From the NCBI GenBank assembly GCA_026419195.1, contig JANZZV010000010.1, positions 1 through 64,000 of the forward strand: DNA of 64,000 bases, written 5' to 3'. The DNA is from Fervidobacterium sp. (GTDB lineage Bacteria; Thermotogota; Thermotogae; Thermotogales; Fervidobacteriaceae). The notes under the pieces are model-generated. The model saw only the letters and a list, made by a program, of their open reading frames with translations, did no database searches and had not been told where the DNA came from. This document shows, piece by piece, positions 6,076-18,942 of this stretch. Numbering within the stretch: position 1 is the stretch's first letter; each line of letters starts with the position of its first letter. Both the position numbers and the translations under genes were made by a program.

Positions 6076-6705
6076 TCACCTTTCATATTTTATGGAAAGA
6101 TATATCCTTATACCGCCTTCTTTCCAAATATCTTCTACATTACCAAAGATCTCTTTCATGTAGTTCTTTATCCTTTCTCCTCCTTTGTTGTGATATGCAA
6201 CAATTTGCAAAGTACCTGAATATTCCAAATGCTGGAACGCACCTTCTATAAGCTTCATCCAAACTTCTTTTCCAGCAACTATCGGTGGATTGGAAATTAT
6301 GTGATTAAACTTCATATCATCCCATGGTTCATACAGATCTCCTTGACGTATATCTGCATCGATATTATTATCCTTAGCGTTAATCTTTGCAAATTCAACA
6401 GCACGTTTGTTTATATCAGACATATAAATTTGTATTGTTGGAAACTCTTTTTTTAGAGTTATTCCAATAACACCGTATCCACAACCTATATCAAGCACTC
6501 TTCCAGTCAAAGGATTACAATTTTCTAAAAGTATCTGCGTTGCCTTATCGATTTTGCCAAACGAGTAAACACTTGAAGGAGTCTTAAACTTGTAAATATG
6601 CCCATTCTTAAGTTTCAGTTCAACCTCTTTTATCCTTAAGATAGATTGTGGTTCTTCAGAATAGTAATGTTCAAATTTCTTTTTTTCATCTTTACTGTTT
6701 CTCAA
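6076..6705 (-). CDS. class I SAM-dependent methyltransferase (RsmC/RlmG-like small MTS domain)
   Basis: A Rossmann methyltransferase core is clear: motif I VLDIGCGYGVIG (about residue 68), an acidic motif II (YMSDINKRAVEFAK) and the catalytic NPP motif in ISNPPIVAG (about 136). NPP is typical of N-methyltransferases acting on bases or amides, and this arrangement is that of the MTS family including the 16S rRNA guanine-N2 methyltransferase RsmC. It is a single-domain version of 209 residues, whereas RsmC has a duplicated domain. It starts at TTG 6705 behind GGGAGGTG and overlaps the stop of the upstream GAF/GGDEF gene by four bases. Confidence 0.82.
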   Translation of the reverse strand: MRNSKDEKKKFEHYYSEEPQSILRIKEVELKLKNGHIYKFKTPSSVYSFGKIDKATQILLENCNPLTGRVLDIGCGYGVIGITLKKEFPTIQIYMSDINKRAVEFAKINAKDNNIDADIRQGDLYEPWDDMKFNHIISNPPIVAGKEVWMKLIEGAFQHLEYSGTLQIVAYHNKGGERIKNYMKEIFGNVEDIWKEGGIRIYLSIKYER

Positions 6706-12200: not shown

Positions 12201-12736
12201 ATGTAAAGGAAGAAGTATTATCAGCTGGAATGAATGATTATGTAACAAAACCAGTAAAAATTGAGGAACTTGATAGAATACTTGAAAAATTCTGCGGACA
12301 TTTAGAAATTCGAAATTCTGAATCAGCGAAAAAGGAAGAAACTAAAATTAATGTATGGCAAGGTAATAAGCATTCAGAAATCGAAGAAAAAATTCAAAAA
12401 ATCAAAGAAGATCAAGGCTTCGATGAAAAATTTATGTTTGAACTAATCAAAACATTTATCGATTCAACAAAGCAAAGTATCGATAACATAAGATCATCCC
12501 TAAGTAAAAATGATTTTGAAACAGCACAAAGAGAAGCTCATAGCATAAAAGGAGCTGCAAGATCACTAAGCTTCAACTATATGGGCGAATTAGCTTATGA
12601 ATTAGAAAAACACGCGCAAGTAAAAGACGCAGGTTTTGATTATGAAAAGTGTCTAAAAGATATCGAAGAAAAACTCTATGAAGTTATTACATACTACAGG
12701 ACATCTTATGAACTAAATCTTAACAATGACCAATGA
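9275..12736 (+). CDS. hybrid sensor histidine kinase: 7TM-PAS-PAS-GAF-HisKA-HATPase-REC-HPt
   Basis: This 1153-residue multidomain kinase opens with about seven membrane helices (1-225, histidine-kinase N-terminal 7TM type), then two PAS-like domains (about 240-335 and 340-455) and a GAF domain (about 465-630). HisKA has SHEIRTP with the phospho-His near 652; the ATPase has NLINNAIKFT, EDTGIGIP and GTGLGLSIS. The receiver (about 892-1010) keeps LVVEDYE, FMDILMPEMDG, LTAH and TKP. The C-terminal HPt domain has AHSIKGAARS with its His near 1087. It can therefore run a complete intramolecular phosphorelay. Start ATG 9275 follows GGAGGGGG. The end overlaps the convergent cyuA gene by 17 bases. 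Output partner unknown. Confidence 0.95.
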   Translation: MTEINISVVYIFLLLYNSIIAYQTLTVFARYKNKDIGKSGIIICLVIALYSFGYAMELLSIMSNDKSSAFLWYKIQYFAIPFISFSWYLFANAFAEKRIGKKLVVFLLIIPLLSVIAVWTNDVHNLYLKGYLQGGHYIQRGPLYYVLIVYNYVLAIIAYVKLFLAAKRLALSIRKVTAFNVLVAVLIPISTNIIYLALNLDIDLTIFGLMISVIILLYEAQKIQGFDIKEKTKEIVYNSTQDLILVINYDEIVIEFNNNFGKMAYEMFGRTDLKNKKLSEILPPEIVEVINKENGIIERDNRFFQVKVSMLEERGKLLGKIIFFHEITDLKRLENEKLFENERYRRLFEFAPVGILVEDENGFILDANPEFCKLSSRRKEELLGNHVSTLAPKEDYDLVRKNIENIISGRTLVHTVKSIGKFGEEKYFELYETRIILPNSKYGILSIQKDITKQVITQQVVRNLAKYQQVILDLALNFINLPLERLDEEIKKAIDIVAKELKINRIRVYKFSKEGQFTSIGNWFYSNSSTETPLVSFDSSVVRGKELEELLLGKQFMVIKGKVSNENINKFFGENTIALITPIKLNNEIIGFISAASQSEREWTIPEKRIMLLLATLIANTEMKRIYEQELIKAKQKAEQANIAKSAFLASMSHEIRTPLNGIVGFTNLLKETNLDEKQRKYVETIIKSTEVLLGIINDILDLAKIESGKFQLEPIECNLKMEMQSSLVLYNAKAKEKNVSYVVEIDEKISECLVVDSLRIQQVMFNLINNAIKFTPAGGFVKVSIRKVSEEMLYDTIRFSVEDTGIGIPKEKLSKIFEPFEQADISVTRKYGGTGLGLSISQRIVNMMGSKINVESEEGKGSTFYFELKLKKCKKQESREYKEKTIRKYNAKVLVVEDYEINSILMAELLKRYGIVPDFAINGLQGVEMALKNDYDLIFMDILMPEMDGIEATKKIRTVKLDVPIVALTAHALKNVKEEVLSAGMNDYVTKPVKIEELDRILEKFCGHLEIRNSESAKKEETKINVWQGNKHSEIEEKIQKIKEDQGFDEKFMFELIKTFIDSTKQSIDNIRSSLSKNDFETAQREAHSIKGAARSLSFNYMGELAYELEKHAQVKDAGFDYEKCLKDIEEKLYEVITYYRTSYELNLNNDQ

Positions 12737-13943
12737 ATTCAATCACATCTTTGTCAAATTGCCTGAGCGAATTTGTGAGTAGTTCTATCCTGGAGATGGT
12801 AACCTCAACATCCTTTGCGGCAAAACCATTTCCACAAGGTACGTTTGTGTTGTTAATAGCAAGTTTAGATGAATCAAAAGCCATCTGTGTTCCTACGCTT
12901 GCTTTTAAAGCACATCCCCTCTTGGCACCGTCACAAGTCATACCAAACAGTGTTGCCAAAACATTGTTTATGGCGTTTTTCATTTGTTCCTTTGTTCCAT
13001 TCATTAAATATGTTATTGCCGCACTACTACCTGCAGATGCAATTGAACCAGCACCACATATAGGCGTTAGCTTTCCTGTGTAAGCCTTTATATATATTGT
13101 TACAAGTATACTGAGCAAAACAGATTTTGTAATTTTATCTCGTTCCATACGTTTTTTCATTCCGTAAAGAGCAGGTGGAACAATACATGATATTCCTTGA
13201 TTACCGCTACCAGCCACTGTCATGATCGGAATCAGTTCACCACTCATTCTTACATCAACACCCGCAGCCACATAAGAATGTATACCATCTAACAACTTAC
13301 CAAAATTCCCTTCCCTCTTCTTTCCCAAACGCGCAGCTTCAACGTTATATTTTATAGCACTCTCAACGACTTCAACAACATCTAAGTGAGGCTCTTCAAT
13401 GTATTCAAATATGTCATCCAATTTTATAGATCTGACAAAATCTTTCTTAAAAGAAACACTTGTCTGTGTGTTATAAACTTCTTCTCCATCAACGACTATC
13501 TTGCTTACATTATCGTGGGAATCTGTGATCTCAACAACTACTTCATTATCACCAATAAGTGTTGTTTTAATGTGAAGAGAATAATTATTTTCATAATCAA
13601 CAGTTATTTTGTCAATAACCTCCTTCGTTTTTTCAATGGCATCTGAATCAACATCTTTAAAAACCTGTAAACCAAGTTCAGATCTTCCTACTAAATAAGC
13701 AAGAGCAATTGCGAGGTCGAAACCGCGCAAATGCGTACCTGGTATACCAACTTCCAGCCCATTTTTGTACGTATTTCTGTCCATTGTGACGTGTATTTTT
13801 TTGAGTTTTCCAACCAGATATTTCTTGCCAACTGCTACAGATAAACCAACAGCAACTGGCTCTGTGCAACCATACGACAGCTTAACATTATCGAAAAACA
13901 GTTCTCTTATCAATTCTGTTACATCAGCCTTATTCATATCCAT
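12720..13943 (-). CDS. cyuA: L-cysteine desulfidase / UPF0597 (COG3681) iron-sulfur protein
   Basis: The protein matches the CyuA/UPF0597 family: opening residues with LSYGCTEPVAVGL, SCIVPPALYG, CGAGSIASAGSSAAITYL and the MTCDGAKRGCALK segment. The Cys in CGAGS and the two Cys of CDGAKRGC are the probable [4Fe-4S] ligands, as in the serine-dehydratase alpha superfamily. Family members break L-cysteine into pyruvate, ammonia and sulfide. ATG 13943 follows GAGGTGG by eight bases. It sits downstream of metF with a 98-base gap containing a good promoter of its own. Sulfide produced here could feed the homocysteine-forming genes upstream. A related dehydratase activity on serine cannot be excluded. 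Confidence 0.85.
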   Translation of the reverse strand: MDMNKADVTELIRELFFDNVKLSYGCTEPVAVGLSVAVGKKYLVGKLKKIHVTMDRNTYKNGLEVGIPGTHLRGFDLAIALAYLVGRSELGLQVFKDVDSDAIEKTKEVIDKITVDYENNYSLHIKTTLIGDNEVVVEITDSHDNVSKIVVDGEEVYNTQTSVSFKKDFVRSIKLDDIFEYIEEPHLDVVEVVESAIKYNVEAARLGKKREGNFGKLLDGIHSYVAAGVDVRMSGELIPIMTVAGSGNQGISCIVPPALYGMKKRMERDKITKSVLLSILVTIYIKAYTGKLTPICGAGSIASAGSSAAITYLMNGTKEQMKNAINNVLATLFGMTCDGAKRGCALKASVGTQMAFDSSKLAINNTNVPCGNGFAAKDVEVTISRIELLTNSLRQFDKDVIEFIGHC

Positions 13944-13985
13944 AACTTTAACCACCTCAATACTTGACATATACTTGATATATAA

Positions 13986-14014
13986 ATTATATTTTCTTAG
14001 CATTTATTATTCAA
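13986..14014 (-). promoter_or_regulatory. sigma-A type promoter in front of cyuA
   Basis: On the minus strand TTGAAT (14009-14014) and TATAAT (13986-13991) are separated by exactly 17 bases, in the gap between metF and cyuA. It would give the desulfidase gene independent expression from the methionine operon. No operator or hairpin is obvious between it and the start codon. Confidence 0.6.
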
Positions 14015-14041: not shown

Positions 14042-14974
14042 TTATCGAAGATCCTGAAAATTTTTCAAAATTTCACACACTTCTTCGCCTCGTCCCATGG
14101 TAAAGATATGTACACCAGGCGCACCATATTCAAGTAACTTTTCTATAAGCTGAATTGTAAAACGAACACCAGTACTAAATTCCTCATTTAAAGTTTGACA
14201 ATTTTCCATCGATTCAATGAATCTTTGGGGTATGCTTACGAAGAATTTCTTAGGAATCGAGTATATAGATTTTTTGTTAACAATTGGTTTAACCCCTGGT
14301 ATGATTGGCACATTTATCCCTACTTCTCTGCAACTTTTAACAAAAGACTTATAAATATCCGCATCGAAAACCATTTGAGTTATTACAAAGTCTGCTCCTA
14401 AATCGATTTTATCTTTCAAAAACTTTAAATCTTTTTGCATATTGGGAGCTTCAAAATGCTTTTCTGGATATCCTGCAACACCAATACAAAAATCTACAGG
14501 TTTCGCAGATGTATACAAATATTTCCCTTTCTTCATATCGCTTATCTGCTTAACAAGTTCTGAAGCAAATTTATAATCGCTCACCATTGAATTAAAACCA
14601 ACTTCTTCACCGCGAACAACAAAAATATTTTCAACTCCCATTATGGATAAATCTATCAATATGTCTTCCAATTCAAATTTATTCATACCCTTACAAATAA
14701 TATGTGGCACAACATCTACATTGTATCTTTTCATCAAAGCAGCTGTGAGTCCAATGGTTCCTGGTCTTTTCACCTTTTGTATCTTGACAATCCCATTATC
14801 CGTTTCGAGAAAATCTATCTCTATTGGGTGTCTTGTTATGTTAATAAATGAAATATTGTATTTCAAGAGTCTATCAAGCGTTGAGAATATCTTTTCAACA
14901 TCCTCGCCCCTTCGTGGAGGAATTATCTCTATCGATAAAATTTTACCTGTTTTTAGTTTTTCAATTACTTTCAT
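14042..14974 (-). CDS. metF: 5,10-methylenetetrahydrofolate reductase
   Basis: The 310-residue protein fits the MetF TIM barrel: N-terminal LSIEIIPPRRGED with the catalytic Glu, the central NIFVVRGEE region, and the FAD/folate-binding segment GADFVITQMVFD with downstream VPIIPGVKPI. It reduces methylene-THF to methyl-THF, the methyl donor for homocysteine methylation to methionine. It lies downstream of the COG2122 gene and is therefore probably under the methionine leader control. No methionine synthase gene is visible in the window. Confidence 0.93.
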   Translation of the reverse strand: MKVIEKLKTGKILSIEIIPPRRGEDVEKIFSTLDRLLKYNISFINITRHPIEIDFLETDNGIVKIQKVKRPGTIGLTAALMKRYNVDVVPHIICKGMNKFELEDILIDLSIMGVENIFVVRGEEVGFNSMVSDYKFASELVKQISDMKKGKYLYTSAKPVDFCIGVAGYPEKHFEAPNMQKDLKFLKDKIDLGADFVITQMVFDADIYKSFVKSCREVGINVPIIPGVKPIVNKKSIYSIPKKFFVSIPQRFIESMENCQTLNEEFSTGVRFTIQLIEKLLEYGAPGVHIFTMGRGEEVCEILKNFQDLR

Positions 14975-14986
14975 ATATCTACCTCC

Positions 14987-15751
14987 TCAATAAGAAAATT
15001 TTAAATTACCAACAGCACCTAAATTATTCTGATATATTACAACTACCCCCTCTATCATCGTACCTATAGCCTTTTGTGCTTCATTTAAAACCTTCTCAAC
15101 ATCCTCCGAACTTTTGACCATATTCGAATATTTGGTAGCAAATGCATCAGCTATGGACACATTTTTCGAAACCACAGTTACAGCATCCGCTTTACCAAAA
15201 TTTAACGAATGCCCTATCTTCCCAGAGGAAGTACATACACCATACTTGCCTGGACCTAAGACCAGAGAGATTTTGTTAAATTCATTGCCAAAATTCGCAA
15301 AGATGCCAACTTTTGTTTCCTTATCAGCACTAATGTAAACGTCTCCTCCATTCTCAACAATCACATTTGTACAATTGTATTTCTCTATCAGTTGATCTCC
15401 TATTATCTGTGCGAAGGTACCAGCAACACATGCCATAGGACCAACGTTTGCCAACCATGAAGCGCTTAACATTCTTTTCACAAATTCTGGTAAATCATCA
15501 TTGTTCTCCATACATATCGGTACAAGTGATGTAGCAAAGGACGGGACGATTTTAATGAACTCGCTAAGCTTATCGTGTAGTATTTTTACCTGCTCGTACA
15601 CAAAATCAACGACTTCAACTACATTTCCTGTAAATCCGTCAAAACCAATCCATAAATCAGTATGTTTGTATTTTACATAAAACTCAACAAATTTCTCCAA
15701 GTACCAGTCCCTGTAAAATCTCTTTGTCACAGGATTTTTCACAAATATCAC
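14987..15751 (-). CDS. COG2122 / UPF0280 family protein (ApbE-like fold), homocysteine synthesis accessory
   Basis: Recognised from the family signature: TDLWIGFDGF near the N-terminus, GPMACVAGTFAQIIGDQL in the middle, VENGGDVYIS, and CTSSGKIGHSLNFGKADAVTV, which resembles the ApbE flavin-transferase fold. As I recall, genetic work in Methanosarcina implicated the COG2122 gene together with COG1900 and a ferredoxin protein in making homocysteine from aspartate semialdehyde and sulfide. Here it is directly downstream of the COG1900-ferredoxin fusion (36-base gap), which is the same association in a bacterium. The biochemical role remains unproven. Confidence 0.88.
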   Translation of the reverse strand: MIFVKNPVTKRFYRDWYLEKFVEFYVKYKHTDLWIGFDGFTGNVVEVVDFVYEQVKILHDKLSEFIKIVPSFATSLVPICMENNDDLPEFVKRMLSASWLANVGPMACVAGTFAQIIGDQLIEKYNCTNVIVENGGDVYISADKETKVGIFANFGNEFNKISLVLGPGKYGVCTSSGKIGHSLNFGKADAVTVVSKNVSIADAFATKYSNMVKSSEDVEKVLNEAQKAIGTMIEGVVVIYQNNLGAVGNLKFSY

Positions 15752-15787: not shown

Positions 15788-17194
15788 TTAATATGGCGAA
15801 TCTGGAAATTCATTTCTGGACATTTCTTCGTAGTTTTTTTCATACGGCAATTTAATTCCTATCGGACATACATCTGAACACAAAAGACACTCAACACATT
15901 TCTGTGAATTCAACCTCACTGAATTATTGTCAAAATAGTCAAAGTATAGCGCTCCATATTCACAAACACCGATGCATGCACCACAATTCAAACACTGTCT
16001 TTTGTACTTTGATTTTAATTCATGATAATGCTCTCGCATATCAACATACACAAATGTGCTGTTTAAACTCTTGAGAGACCTTTCTTCTGAAAGCTTTTCA
16101 ACAGGATTGCTTAACAAGAATTTACCTTCCAGAATCCAAATTTTCAAAATACTTGCTATTTCCAAAGATTTTCTAATGCTTGTTAATGGGCTGGTTCTCA
16201 CTATCTTTCCATCAAGCTCAATTTTTCCACTTTGCAGCTCTTCATAATTTACTATTTTCAAGATTGGTCTTTCAACTTTTGAATAATCCCTAAGCTCTGT
16301 GTAAATTTCTCTATTTGACAAGCTAACATAATAGGCTATTTCTTCATTTACAACAGGTATTGGAATACCAACACCTACGAACAGTGTAACACCATAATTC
16401 TTAAAATACGCCCCTTTGACAAAATCTGCACTCATCTTCTTTGCATCGCCAACAAGCGCTAAAGTTCGGGATGGACCAATTGGTACACCGTATTCATTTT
16501 CTTTGACAACATTCTTAAACTGCGTACCGTACCAAGCAACATAACCCACCGTTCCTCCGAGGAAAATCTTTGTTCCAATACCTATAGTTTGCATCTTTGG
16601 ATCTTTCAACAAAGGACTTAATTCACCAGAAGTGGAGTAATTGACGTTTCCATAGTTTGGCAACAACTTACCCATGTAAGTGTAGATTATCCTGTCTGAA
16701 CCATTTGTTGCAGCAGCGTAATTTTGATATGCGTTACGAGGATTAAAGAGAAAAAAGTCGTTAATAATATTTTTGTTTATGTAAGTCTTAAAATACTTTC
16801 CAGGATAACAATCTGTACCACTTCCCCAAGCCTCCAAAAGTATATTTTCCCCCCTTATGAGCATTTCAATAATATGGGCTCCTCCAAAAGACACATCGTA
16901 GTCTGATTTTTGAGTTGCACCCAAGTATCCATCAACAGCAGCAATACCACCGTATACTTCAACACCACCAAGTTTGATTTTCTCCATCTTCATGGGTGGA
17001 AACGTATGTCCAAAATTTATAAAAGCCCCACTTGAACACATAGGAGCAAATGTGCCGGTTGTAACAACATCAACTTTTTTAACAACCTCTGATATACCTT
17101 CTTCTTTTGCCATTTTTACAACTTCCTGTGCAGTTAACACCACTGCCTTCCCTTCTGCTATCTTTTTGTTAATCTCTTCCAACGACTTGAACAT
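15788..17194 (-). CDS. homocysteine biosynthesis protein (COG1900/DUF39) fused to a 2x[4Fe-4S] ferredoxin domain
   Basis: Residues about 1-375 are the DUF39/HcyBio domain, proposed L-aspartate-semialdehyde sulfurtransferase; the conserved Cys in PMCSSGAF (Cys53) and GTDCYPG (Cys129) fit the two Cys reported as functional in the archaeal enzyme. Residues about 410-455 carry two CxxCxxCxxxC clusters (CLNCGACIGVC and CVECLLCSDVC) for two [4Fe-4S] centres. In methanogens the ferredoxin is usually a separate NIL-domain protein; here no NIL domain is visible and the ferredoxin is part of the same chain. The gene follows aspartokinase by 15 bases, linking aspartate activation to homocysteine formation. 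Confidence 0.9.
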   Translation of the reverse strand: MFKSLEEINKKIAEGKAVVLTAQEVVKMAKEEGISEVVKKVDVVTTGTFAPMCSSGAFINFGHTFPPMKMEKIKLGGVEVYGGIAAVDGYLGATQKSDYDVSFGGAHIIEMLIRGENILLEAWGSGTDCYPGKYFKTYINKNIINDFFLFNPRNAYQNYAAATNGSDRIIYTYMGKLLPNYGNVNYSTSGELSPLLKDPKMQTIGIGTKIFLGGTVGYVAWYGTQFKNVVKENEYGVPIGPSRTLALVGDAKKMSADFVKGAYFKNYGVTLFVGVGIPIPVVNEEIAYYVSLSNREIYTELRDYSKVERPILKIVNYEELQSGKIELDGKIVRTSPLTSIRKSLEIASILKIWILEGKFLLSNPVEKLSEERSLKSLNSTFVYVDMREHYHELKSKYKRQCLNCGACIGVCEYGALYFDYFDNNSVRLNSQKCVECLLCSDVCPIGIKLPYEKNYEEMSRNEFPDSPY

Positions 17195-17209: not shown

Positions 17210-18622
17210 TTAACCGAAAAATTCGTTGTGAACAAGTTGTAAAGCTTTTTCCCCGTCTTTCTGATCAACTATGAAATAAATTGAAACATCCGACGCACCT
17301 GCTGAAATCATCTCTACATTTATCTTTCCGCTTGCCACAGCTTTAAATATCCTGGAGGCTATACCATGATAGTTTAAAAGTCCACTGCCAACAACGGCTA
17401 TCAGCGACTTGTCCATACTATAACTTATCTGTTCTATCTCCTTTGTCTTAAACTGTTCGGAGATTCTCATAACAGCACCTAAATCTTTTTTAGAAATAAC
17501 TAGAACTATCGATGTTTGAGAAGTTATTACAAATTTTATATTCACTCCTATTTGAGAGACGCATGAAGCAATCTCTCCGAGAATTCCTGGCACACGTCCT
17601 ATATTGTGTCCTCTGATCTGTACAATAGCTATATCACTTGTCATAGACACACTTTTTATCCTTGCACCATTATCATTTGAGTCTGATGAAAATATAACAG
17701 TACACCCATCGCAACCATCAAAAGGACTAAATTCAAAGTTTTCAAGACTTTTCCAATCGCAAACATAAAGAGGTATATTTTTCAAACGCAAAGGTTCCAC
17801 CGCGTTGTGGTGCAAAATTTTCGCTCCAAAATATGATAATTCATCTGCTTCTGCGTAAGTTAAACTCTTAACCGTCTTGGTAACCTTAGTAATTCTTGGA
17901 TCACTTGTGAGAAAGCCTGGAACATCTTTTATAAGCACAACACCGGCTGCATCAAGACAATATCCAAGCGCAGTGGCGGTGTAATCACTACCTCCACGCC
18001 CAAGAATAGTTATGTTTTCGTCTACAACAGACCTTCCGTAAAAACCTGGAATTACACTGTCGCTTTCTTCCCATTTCTTCATATTGAGTCTTACCAACAT
18101 TCTGCTTTTTTCAAGTAATACATTAGAATTGCCGTATACCCCATCGGTCACAATAAAATCTTCAGGAAACATAACCTTGCAATTCAATCCCATTGTATTT
18201 AGATTATGATTCAAAATAATTGCACTCAAACGCTCACCGCAACAAAGGATTTTATCACGCAGAAAGTCTGGGACTTTGCCAATCATCTTACTTCCTATCA
18301 ATAGACGCTCAACAGAATACACTTGTTGTTTTAAAATTTGAAAGATACTTTCGTTTTCCTCCAAAATAAAACTTTTGTGAAAGATATACAGTTCATCAAG
18401 AAATTTTTGGACATCCAAGTTGTTCACATTATCCAAAGCGTTGACAAGTTTATTAGTTACACCCTTGAATGCACTGACAACAATAACAAATCGAAAATTT
18501 TTCTTATTTTGCCTTAATCCCAAAAATAACTTCACAACCCTTTCCATATCTTCTGAATTTGATAACACAGAGCCACCAACTTTGAAAACAAAGAAATTTA
18601 CGTTCCTCTCTGTACCTTCCAT
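17210..18622 (-). CDS. lysC: aspartokinase with C-terminal ACT domains
   Basis: The kinase domain has FKVGGSVLS at the N-terminus, GRGGSDYTATALG (about residue 205) and KDVPGFLTSDPR; two ACT domains (about residues 325-465) follow for amino-acid feedback. It makes aspartyl phosphate, first step to methionine, threonine and lysine. ATG 18622 is preceded by GGGGGAG; an in-frame upstream start at 18667 lacks a comparable site and would lie nearly at the terminator. It is the first structural gene behind the Met-rich leader and attenuator, which suggests this isozyme serves methionine synthesis. No homoserine dehydrogenase domain is attached. Confidence 0.95.
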   Translation of the reverse strand: MEGTERNVNFFVFKVGGSVLSNSEDMERVVKLFLGLRQNKKNFRFVIVVSAFKGVTNKLVNALDNVNNLDVQKFLDELYIFHKSFILEENESIFQILKQQVYSVERLLIGSKMIGKVPDFLRDKILCCGERLSAIILNHNLNTMGLNCKVMFPEDFIVTDGVYGNSNVLLEKSRMLVRLNMKKWEESDSVIPGFYGRSVVDENITILGRGGSDYTATALGYCLDAAGVVLIKDVPGFLTSDPRITKVTKTVKSLTYAEADELSYFGAKILHHNAVEPLRLKNIPLYVCDWKSLENFEFSPFDGCDGCTVIFSSDSNDNGARIKSVSMTSDIAIVQIRGHNIGRVPGILGEIASCVSQIGVNIKFVITSQTSIVLVISKKDLGAVMRISEQFKTKEIEQISYSMDKSLIAVVGSGLLNYHGIASRIFKAVASGKINVEMISAGASDVSIYFIVDQKDGEKALQLVHNEFFG

Positions 18623-18692: not shown

Positions 18693-18725
18693 AAAAAAAG
18701 CGGTCGGGTTATAATCCCGACCGCT
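18693..18725 (-). terminator. intrinsic terminator of the methionine leader
   Basis: On the minus strand CAGCGGTCGGG is followed by a 7-base loop and CCCGACCGCT, then a run of seven T (plus-strand A run 18693-18699). The arms are 18716-18725 and 18699-18708, a perfect 10-bp GC-rich helix. It lies 71 bases before the aspartokinase start and after a short translated leader, the expected place for an attenuator terminator. Confidence 0.92.
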
Positions 18726-18779
18726 GATTTTTTTCAACACCAAACTGGTGTACCTACGTTTCCCAGCGGTCGGTACACC
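18717..18779 (-). promoter_or_regulatory. mutually exclusive antiterminator / anti-antiterminator helices of a ribosome-mediated attenuator
   Basis: In the leader RNA, segment A GGUGUACC (plus 18772-18779, inside the peptide ORF) can pair perfectly with C GGUACACC (18747-18754). Segment B CCGACCGCUG (18764-18773), between them, can pair over 10 bp with E CAGCGGUCGG (18717-18726), the 5' arm of the terminator. C can also pair with D (UGGUGU, 18737-18742) as a 6-bp hairpin when A is covered. A ribosome stalled at the Met codons just upstream masks A, frees B to pair with E, and blocks the terminator. A ribosome reaching the UAG covers B and lets the terminator form. Pairing is seen; the mechanism is inferred. 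Confidence 0.85.
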
Positions 18780-18876
18780 TCATCATCATAGCCATCATAT
18801 TTATAGCTGTTATCGCATCGGTTTTCTTTCTAAGCTTTTTTAAACTGTATGTATTTTGCTCTTGCTCTATAATCAC
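18754..18876 (-). CDS. methionine-rich leader peptide (40 residues) of the methionine operon attenuator
   Basis: A GTG at 18876, seven bases after GGAGG, opens a 40-codon frame ending at TAG 18754-18756. Near the end it encodes NMMAMMMRCTDRW: Met codons at 18793-18798 and 18781-18789 (five in six codons), then Arg and a Cys codon (18775-18777). These codons directly precede the RNA segments that form the alternative helices, and the stop lies between antiterminator segment B and segment C. This is the pattern of a regulatory leader peptide such as those of trp, his or thr operons, but with methionine (and perhaps cysteine) as the sensed amino acid. A stable function for the peptide itself is unlikely. 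Confidence 0.87.
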   Translation of the reverse strand: MIIEQEQNTYSLKKLRKKTDAITAINMMAMMMRCTDRWET

Positions 18877-18914
18877 GGTAAAACCTCCAAACTTAACTTA
18901 CGTATTTTTTTGTG

Positions 18915-18942
18915 ATTATACAACAAATTTGAAAAATTGCAA
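18915..18942 (-). promoter_or_regulatory. promoter of the lysC-hcy-COG2122-metF operon
   Basis: On the minus strand TTGCAA (18937-18942) and TATAAT (18915-18920) are separated by 16 bases. Transcription would begin near 18908, about 30 bases before the leader peptide start, giving a roughly 210-base leader RNA down to the terminator. Confidence 0.72.

Follow-up and report, generated by a model that had tools for sequence, protein, structure and literature searches.

A putative methionine-sensing, ribosome-mediated attenuator upstream of homocysteine and methionine operons in the Thermotogota

The operon and its leader region

On its minus strand, the window (the whole stretch of 64,000 nucleotides analysed here) carries an operon that opens with the aspartate kinase gene lysC and continues with HcyBio, a COG2122 gene, metF and a gene of the SDH_alpha family (Table 1). 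The product of the last gene is probably a CyuA-like L-cysteine desulfidase, with cysteine as its presumed substrate. In Desulfovibrio, the formation of homocysteine from aspartate semialdehyde needs HcyBio (the DUF39/COG1900 protein) together with COG2122 (PMC5764234). Because of this requirement, the operon can be read in the direction from aspartate to methionine, and its genes serve the synthesis or uptake of the amino acid that the leader in front of them would sense.

Between the promoter, from which transcription would be expected to start near 18908, and lysC lies a leader reading frame with a start codon and a Shine-Dalgarno sequence of its own. All the parts named in a preliminary description of this DNA, namely the promoter, the Met-rich leader, two helices and a 10-bp terminator followed by T7, were found on the minus strand, and the positions given there proved correct. 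Counted from the first Met codon, strand 1 occupies positions 19-26, the antiterminator strand A 25-35, the TAG codon 42-44, strand 2 44-51, B 71-81 and C 89-98, followed by T7.

Table 1. Features of the operon and its leader in the window
Feature	Position	Strand	Remarks
SDH_alpha-family protein	12720..14003	minus	family from domain match
metF	14042..14974	minus	methylenetetrahydrofolate reductase (MTHFR)
COG2122 / UPF0280 (ApbE-related)	14987..15751	minus	homocysteine pathway; PRK04334 match below cut-off; function from PMC5764234
HcyBio (PF01837, COG1900/DUF39)	15788..17194	minus	homocysteine biosynthesis, with 4Fe-4S domain; function from PMC5764234
lysC	17210..18622	minus	aspartate kinase (AA_kinase and ACT domains)
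Intrinsic terminator	18693..18726	minus	B 18717-18726, loop, C 18700-18709, T7 18693-18699
B	18717..18727	minus	partner of A (antiterminator) or of C (terminator)
Small hairpin ACACCA-GTT-TGGTGT	18737..18751	minus	nested in antiterminator; fold of transcript before C
Strand 2, GGTACACC	18747..18754	minus	overlaps last base of leader stop codon
Leader ORF, 40 codons	18754..18876	minus	GTG start 18876, TAG stop 18756-18754; translation MIIEQEQNTYSLKKLRKKTDAITAINMMAMMMRCTDRWET, then stop
A, CCGACCGCTGG	18763..18773	minus	5' strand of antiterminator
Strand 1, GGTGTACC	18772..18779	minus	1:2 helix flanking and blocking A; C-G/U-A double change and G-U/G-C change in relatives
Control codons ATGATGGCTATGATGATG	18781..18798	minus	ATG ATG GCT ATG ATG ATG, leader codons 27-32, 5/6 Met
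Shine-Dalgarno GGAGG	18884..18888	minus	7 nt before GTG 18876
Promoter TTGCAA-16 bp-TATAAT	18915..18942	minus	sigma-70 type; 10/12 consensus matches

In the 1:2 helix, GGTGTACC (18779-18772) pairs perfectly with GGTACACC (18754-18747) over 8 bp. The antiterminator joins CCGACCGCTG (18773-18764) to CAGCGGTCGG (18726-18717); the 10 bp first described are all there, but an extra G-U pair lengthens the helix to 11 bp. The terminator stem, AGCGGTCGGG/CCCGACCGCT (18726-18717/18709-18700), has 10 bp and a 7-nt loop before T7. The antiterminator and this intrinsic terminator with its U-run are mutually exclusive.

Distribution in the Thermotogota

The sample consisted of 103 genomes of the class, in which HcyBio operons were retrieved by protein homology before the flanking DNA was read. 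The DNA upstream of lysC was read without requiring Met codons, which kept the retrieval unbiased. An initial contig scan with lysC as the query found no relatives. In total, 44 leaders were found in 43 of the 103 genomes, from 18 genera and 8 families, and the operons that they precede (lysC-HcyBio, HcyBio, metH, metY and metQN) are all made up of methionine genes. A Met-cluster leader with a terminator precedes lysC in 17 genomes of 8 genera: the window genus g1 (G000, G067-G071), g2 (G075, G076), g3 (G078-G080) and g5 (G085), and, in further families, f7 (G006), f8 (G014, G015), f10 (G053) and f11 (G100). Among the genera mentioned in this study, we take g1 to be Fervidobacterium, g3 Thermosipho, g9 Pseudothermotoga and g32 Marinitoga; G014 (locus L127) belongs to the Mesoaciditogaceae (f8). 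In G011, the leader stands directly before HcyBio.

A covariance model (R1) was restricted to six Fervidobacteriaceae leaders, since MAFFT put strand 2 in the wrong place when the window and G070 were aligned with shorter relatives. The model gave weaker but real matches elsewhere, before metQN, metY and metH-type operons. The leader ...NVMAMIMCIYAPGGSPGF of G066 heads an operon of a metH-activation-like protein and metH, with a similar leader in three congeners; ...GIMMRMYSRRRPFDRRC and ...TIMMRVENRRRPFDRRC precede metY in G101 and G102, respectively; and metQ-metN is preceded by leaders in G002, G031, G039, G040 and G041. In a Pfam survey of MetQ, 18 genomes had a Met leader before metQ, and nine others had a SAM-I riboswitch there. 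With a second model (R2), 20 places scored below E=1e-5, all of them before lysC, HcyBio, metH or metQ, and half of these (10/20) were absent from its training set. A detector for a Met cluster, a terminator and an antiterminator, run on both strands of the fetched loci, returned only Thermotogota leaders and one coding-sequence artefact, and about 78 non-Thermotogota loci contained no Met leader before HcyBio. Judged by these sequences, the leader in the window represents a putative phylum-wide system with several target operons, not a single case.

The distribution has gaps. In genera g7 and g8, the lysC-HcyBio operon is present and no leader was found within the DNA read, and metY of the Thermotoga-like genus g13 has no Met leader. 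G072, which is assigned to the window genus, has neither a leader nor an R1 match at its HcyBio operon (L048/L231). This operon is more distant (63% identity versus 70-75%) and was possibly acquired from another lineage.

Some leaders have undergone local rearrangement. In G069, an insertion of about 1.4 kb separates lysC from the terminator of an intact leader (L034, about 1100-2480). Besides its intact Met leader, G076 has a second, degenerate copy, EIAMMMYLKLPQ..., some 400 nt farther upstream (L038, oriented position about 2090), which suggests a local duplication. In G002, two operons on separate contigs, HcyBio (C72:11126-11229; L065, start C72:7259) and metQN (L084, C28), are headed by Met leaders of similar sequence, which suggests that the leader spreads between operons as a cassette.

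Conservation of the leader parts

The order Met codons, strand 1, A, strand 2, B, C and T-run recurs in most leaders. Outside the Met codons, the sequences diverge, and between families they differ almost completely. The Met run is nearly invariant in eight Fervidobacteriaceae leaders, although it lies outside the three switching helices. Relatives retain the open frame, the Met run and Shine-Dalgarno-like sites upstream of it, whereas the first 25 or so codons are unlike even within the genus.

The 1:2 helix has been rebuilt from different sequences: beside that of the window, its strands are GCCGGCG/CGCCGGT in f11, GTGGCAT/ATGCCAC in g32, GTACGGC/GCTGTAC in g27 and CATGGCAA/TTGCCATG in g36. 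Strand 1 starts at the last Met codon or a few bases from it in most leaders. Strand 2 lies near or on the leader stop codon in g1, g2, G063, f11 and g27, whereas g31, g32 and g36 have it well upstream of that codon. Other local pairings block A in g3/g5 and G066. The six Fervidobacteriaceae leaders show a C-G/U-A double change in the 1:2 helix and two double changes in the terminator, and a separate alignment of ten f2/f5/f7/f9 leaders shows double changes at six pairs. The comparison of upstream regions thus yielded both the conserved Met codons and the compensatory changes for which the preliminary description had advised looking. Orthologues that keep the helices without the Met cluster are essentially absent, G046 being a partial exception. 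A nested 2:3 hairpin was considered as a general part of the leader and rejected, as it was confined to the window and its nearest relative, G070, where it contains a mismatch.

The Cys codon that was noted two codons after the Met run is present, but it does not belong to the sensor. Its position is taken by Arg in four congeners (G067, G068, G069 and G071), whose strand 1 is GGCGTACC, and the codon change can be explained as a by-product of the covariation of strand 1 from GGTGTACC to GGCGTACC. Co-sensing of cysteine was rejected: the codon is unconserved, and in the footprint folds described below a ribosome stalled there would hide A.

In the window, the energies of A:B and 1:2 were equalled in about 0.1-0.3% of dinucleotide shuffles. 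The comparative data are the stronger evidence. In the lysC leaders found by protein homology alone, 43 of the 90 codons just before A are Met (binomial 4e-44 versus 2.5%), so that codons for the pathway's end product are clustered there. Over 20 representative leaders, A:B is non-random (Fisher 2e-24; A at p<0.05 in 18/20), as is the flanking 1:2 helix (Fisher p=1e-12), both Fisher values being too small because the representatives are related and their independence is overstated. Among these 20, the 1:2 helix reaches no significance in g3, g5, G066, G015 and G002.

Folding and proposed mechanism

The effect of a ribosome was modelled by folding only the RNA ahead of it, with an assumed reach of +12 nt and the transcript cut off short of C, at both 37 and 65 °C. 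This footprint model presumes tight coupling of transcription and translation, which is an assumption for the Thermotogota. With the ribosome at the Met codons, A:B remains largely intact, although a few leaders already lose part of it at the last Met codon. Within about one to four codons past this codon, A:B drops below about four expected pairs in 20 of 20 leaders at both temperatures. The Met run is therefore placed so that a ribosome waiting on it leaves A free. At the stop codon, a ribosome covers A in the window, G070, G067, f11, g27 and g36; in the other leaders, it stands between A and B and should block their pairing sterically. Under the assumed footprint, stalling at the control codons thus frees the antiterminator and passage blocks it.

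Without a ribosome, the helices are predicted to form in sequence. Before B is made, 1:2 forms in the window RNA with a probability of 0.90-0.97; when the RNA ends before C, A:B with the nested hairpin is preferred; and the ground state of the complete RNA is 1:2 plus the terminator. With A:B at -20.5 kcal/mol and the terminator at -20.2, the two differ little in energy, and the outcome depends on which event comes first. At equilibrium, A:B outcompetes 1:2 as long as the 3' arm of the terminator (C) is still to be made. The 1:2 helix, which forms first, is for this reason at most a kinetic block, and an untranslated leader may read through rather than terminate, unlike that of trp. The fate of a ribosome-free leader matters here because a shortage of methionine also lowers initiator fMet-tRNA, so that deep starvation could stop leader translation. 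The preliminary description had the helices exclude each other as in the trp, his and thr attenuators. The likeness is inexact: A lies mainly inside the 1:2 loop, A:B and 1:2 share only 2 nt, and A:B is the stronger.

Taken together, the leader very probably works as a ribosome-mediated transcription attenuator with charged methionyl-tRNA as its signal, and the comparative data strongly support the original proposal of such a device before a homocysteine/methionine operon. Translation of the leader, stalling and the direction of the response are predicted from the sequences as follows. RNA polymerase would start near 18908, with a ribosome following behind it on the 40-codon leader. Given ample Met-tRNA, the ribosome would reach the stop codon and cover A or, in some relatives, stand between A and B. 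With A unavailable, B would pair with C, and transcription would end ahead of lysC. If Met-tRNA ran short, the ribosome would wait at the Met run, leaving A exposed and, from the third Met codon on, covering strand 1 partly or wholly. Free A would then pair with B, no terminator would form, and the homocysteine/methionine operon would be transcribed. With no ribosome near, 1:2 would form first and probably delay A:B.

Alternative explanations

The ribosome might also be halted by the peptide instead of by the codons. Short arrest leader ORFs of the ermCL type are known, and a specific nascent chain containing the Met run as part of its motif, perhaps with an effector such as SAM, would stall the ribosome at the same point. 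However, the residues that flank the Met run are unconserved between genera (RCTDRW, CGMWKN, RWKAPG, YGNALV, WHTGLL, PWCNRF). Methionine alone recurs, in two to six copies, and a conserved stall-site peptide was not seen, which makes an arrest peptide very improbable. Still less credit can be given to the idea that the terminator is constitutive and the reading frame encodes a small protein that is functional but unrelated to it. A terminator next to a small ORF is in itself no proof of a switch, but the poorly conserved start of the peptide speaks against a functional protein, a copy of the 3' strand of the terminator follows right after the Met codons in almost every leader, and the target genes are all methionine genes.

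Just as hard to sustain is a SAM-binding riboswitch or T-box accompanied by an incidental small ORF. RNA control of methionine genes is usually of these kinds, and SAM-I riboswitches occur in 12 of the 103 genomes of the class. Nevertheless, an Rfam scan of the whole window gave no match at gathering, including to the His, Leu, Thr and Trp leaders, SAM-I and T-box; the window's own genome contains no SAM-I riboswitch (RF00162); and the switching helices and Met codons are the only conserved parts, with no conserved aptamer. A permissive Rfam search of the leader returned chance-level matches only, with no His, Leu, Thr or Trp leader even at E up to 5 and no T-box. Weak matches to L20_leader scored 27 and 21 bits, where gathering requires 58.7, and were taken as chance terminator hairpins.

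Relation to known systems

Leader-peptide attenuation is textbook knowledge for Trp, His, Thr, Leu, Ile/Val and Phe. The Met leader resembles these attenuators in its short ORF with a run of the pathway amino acid, its alternative antiterminator and terminator, its U-run and the biosynthetic operon downstream. It differs in the amino acid sensed, methionine, which is the starter of every protein, and in its host, the Thermotogota. Its topology is also different: A lies mainly in the 1:2 loop and A:B is stronger than 1:2, whereas the others have a linear series of 1:2, 2:3 and 3:4 helices. The mechanism is thus of a known kind; what is new is methionine as the sensed amino acid, the topology with A in the loop, and the phylum.

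Rfam has attenuator leaders for His, Leu, Thr and Trp, and those for Ile/Val and Phe have been characterised elsewhere (PMC3766115). Before the His leaders that its authors reported in bacilli, none was known outside Proteobacteria and Actinobacteria (PMC2965389). The RNA controls of methionine described in the literature examined are SAM riboswitches and T-boxes. The open-access literature searched contained no published Met leader-peptide attenuator, in agreement with the earlier remark that none is well described in the Thermotogota. The Met T-box and a Xanthomonas SAM-I riboswitch that binds uncharged tRNA-fMet (PMC7270179) likewise respond to methionine status through tRNA charging, but there the tRNA binds the RNA directly, whereas here the predicted sensor is the ribosome on the Met codons.

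Ribosome stalling might be expected to sense methionine poorly, since translation of the leader itself begins with methionine. A Met attenuator regulon across the phylum would extend the mechanism to one more amino acid and one more phylum, would account for the control of methionine in genomes that lack SAM riboswitches, and would provide a natural system in which to see how shortages of elongator and initiator Met-tRNA are distinguished. It would also tie the thinly studied DUF39/HcyBio route to homocysteine to methionine control across the phylum.

Coexistence with SAM-I riboswitches

A wider picture may be put forward tentatively, with rather less than even confidence. Attenuation by Met leaders would be the main methionine control of the Thermotogota, acting over unlinked operons for synthesis, remethylation and uptake, and would read both elongator and initiator Met-tRNA. 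Moderate shortage would stall the ribosome at the Met run; deep shortage would stop initiation and yet give read-through, since A:B is stronger than 1:2. In at least one f10 genome, probably of the Petrotogaceae, leader and SAM-I riboswitch would work in series as a two-input gate.

In a single family of the class, genes of these same kinds (metQ, lysC-HcyBio) are under the control of the SAM-I riboswitch: all twelve genomes that have it belong to f10. It senses SAM by an aptamer and needs no translation, whereas the Met leader is proposed to be read by the ribosome. Before metQ, SAM-I replaces the Met leader; before one lysC operon, the two stand in tandem. There, in G053 (L060), a SAM-I riboswitch with its own terminator (6580-6683, minus strand) lies directly upstream of the Met leader, which has a second terminator. 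In G046 (L063), SAM-I (2450-2553) lies upstream of a degenerate Met leader before lysC, in which three Met codons are displaced about 20 codons upstream. Another structured RNA, HEARO (RF02033), was found near a metQ locus of G036 (L104, 3301-3525).
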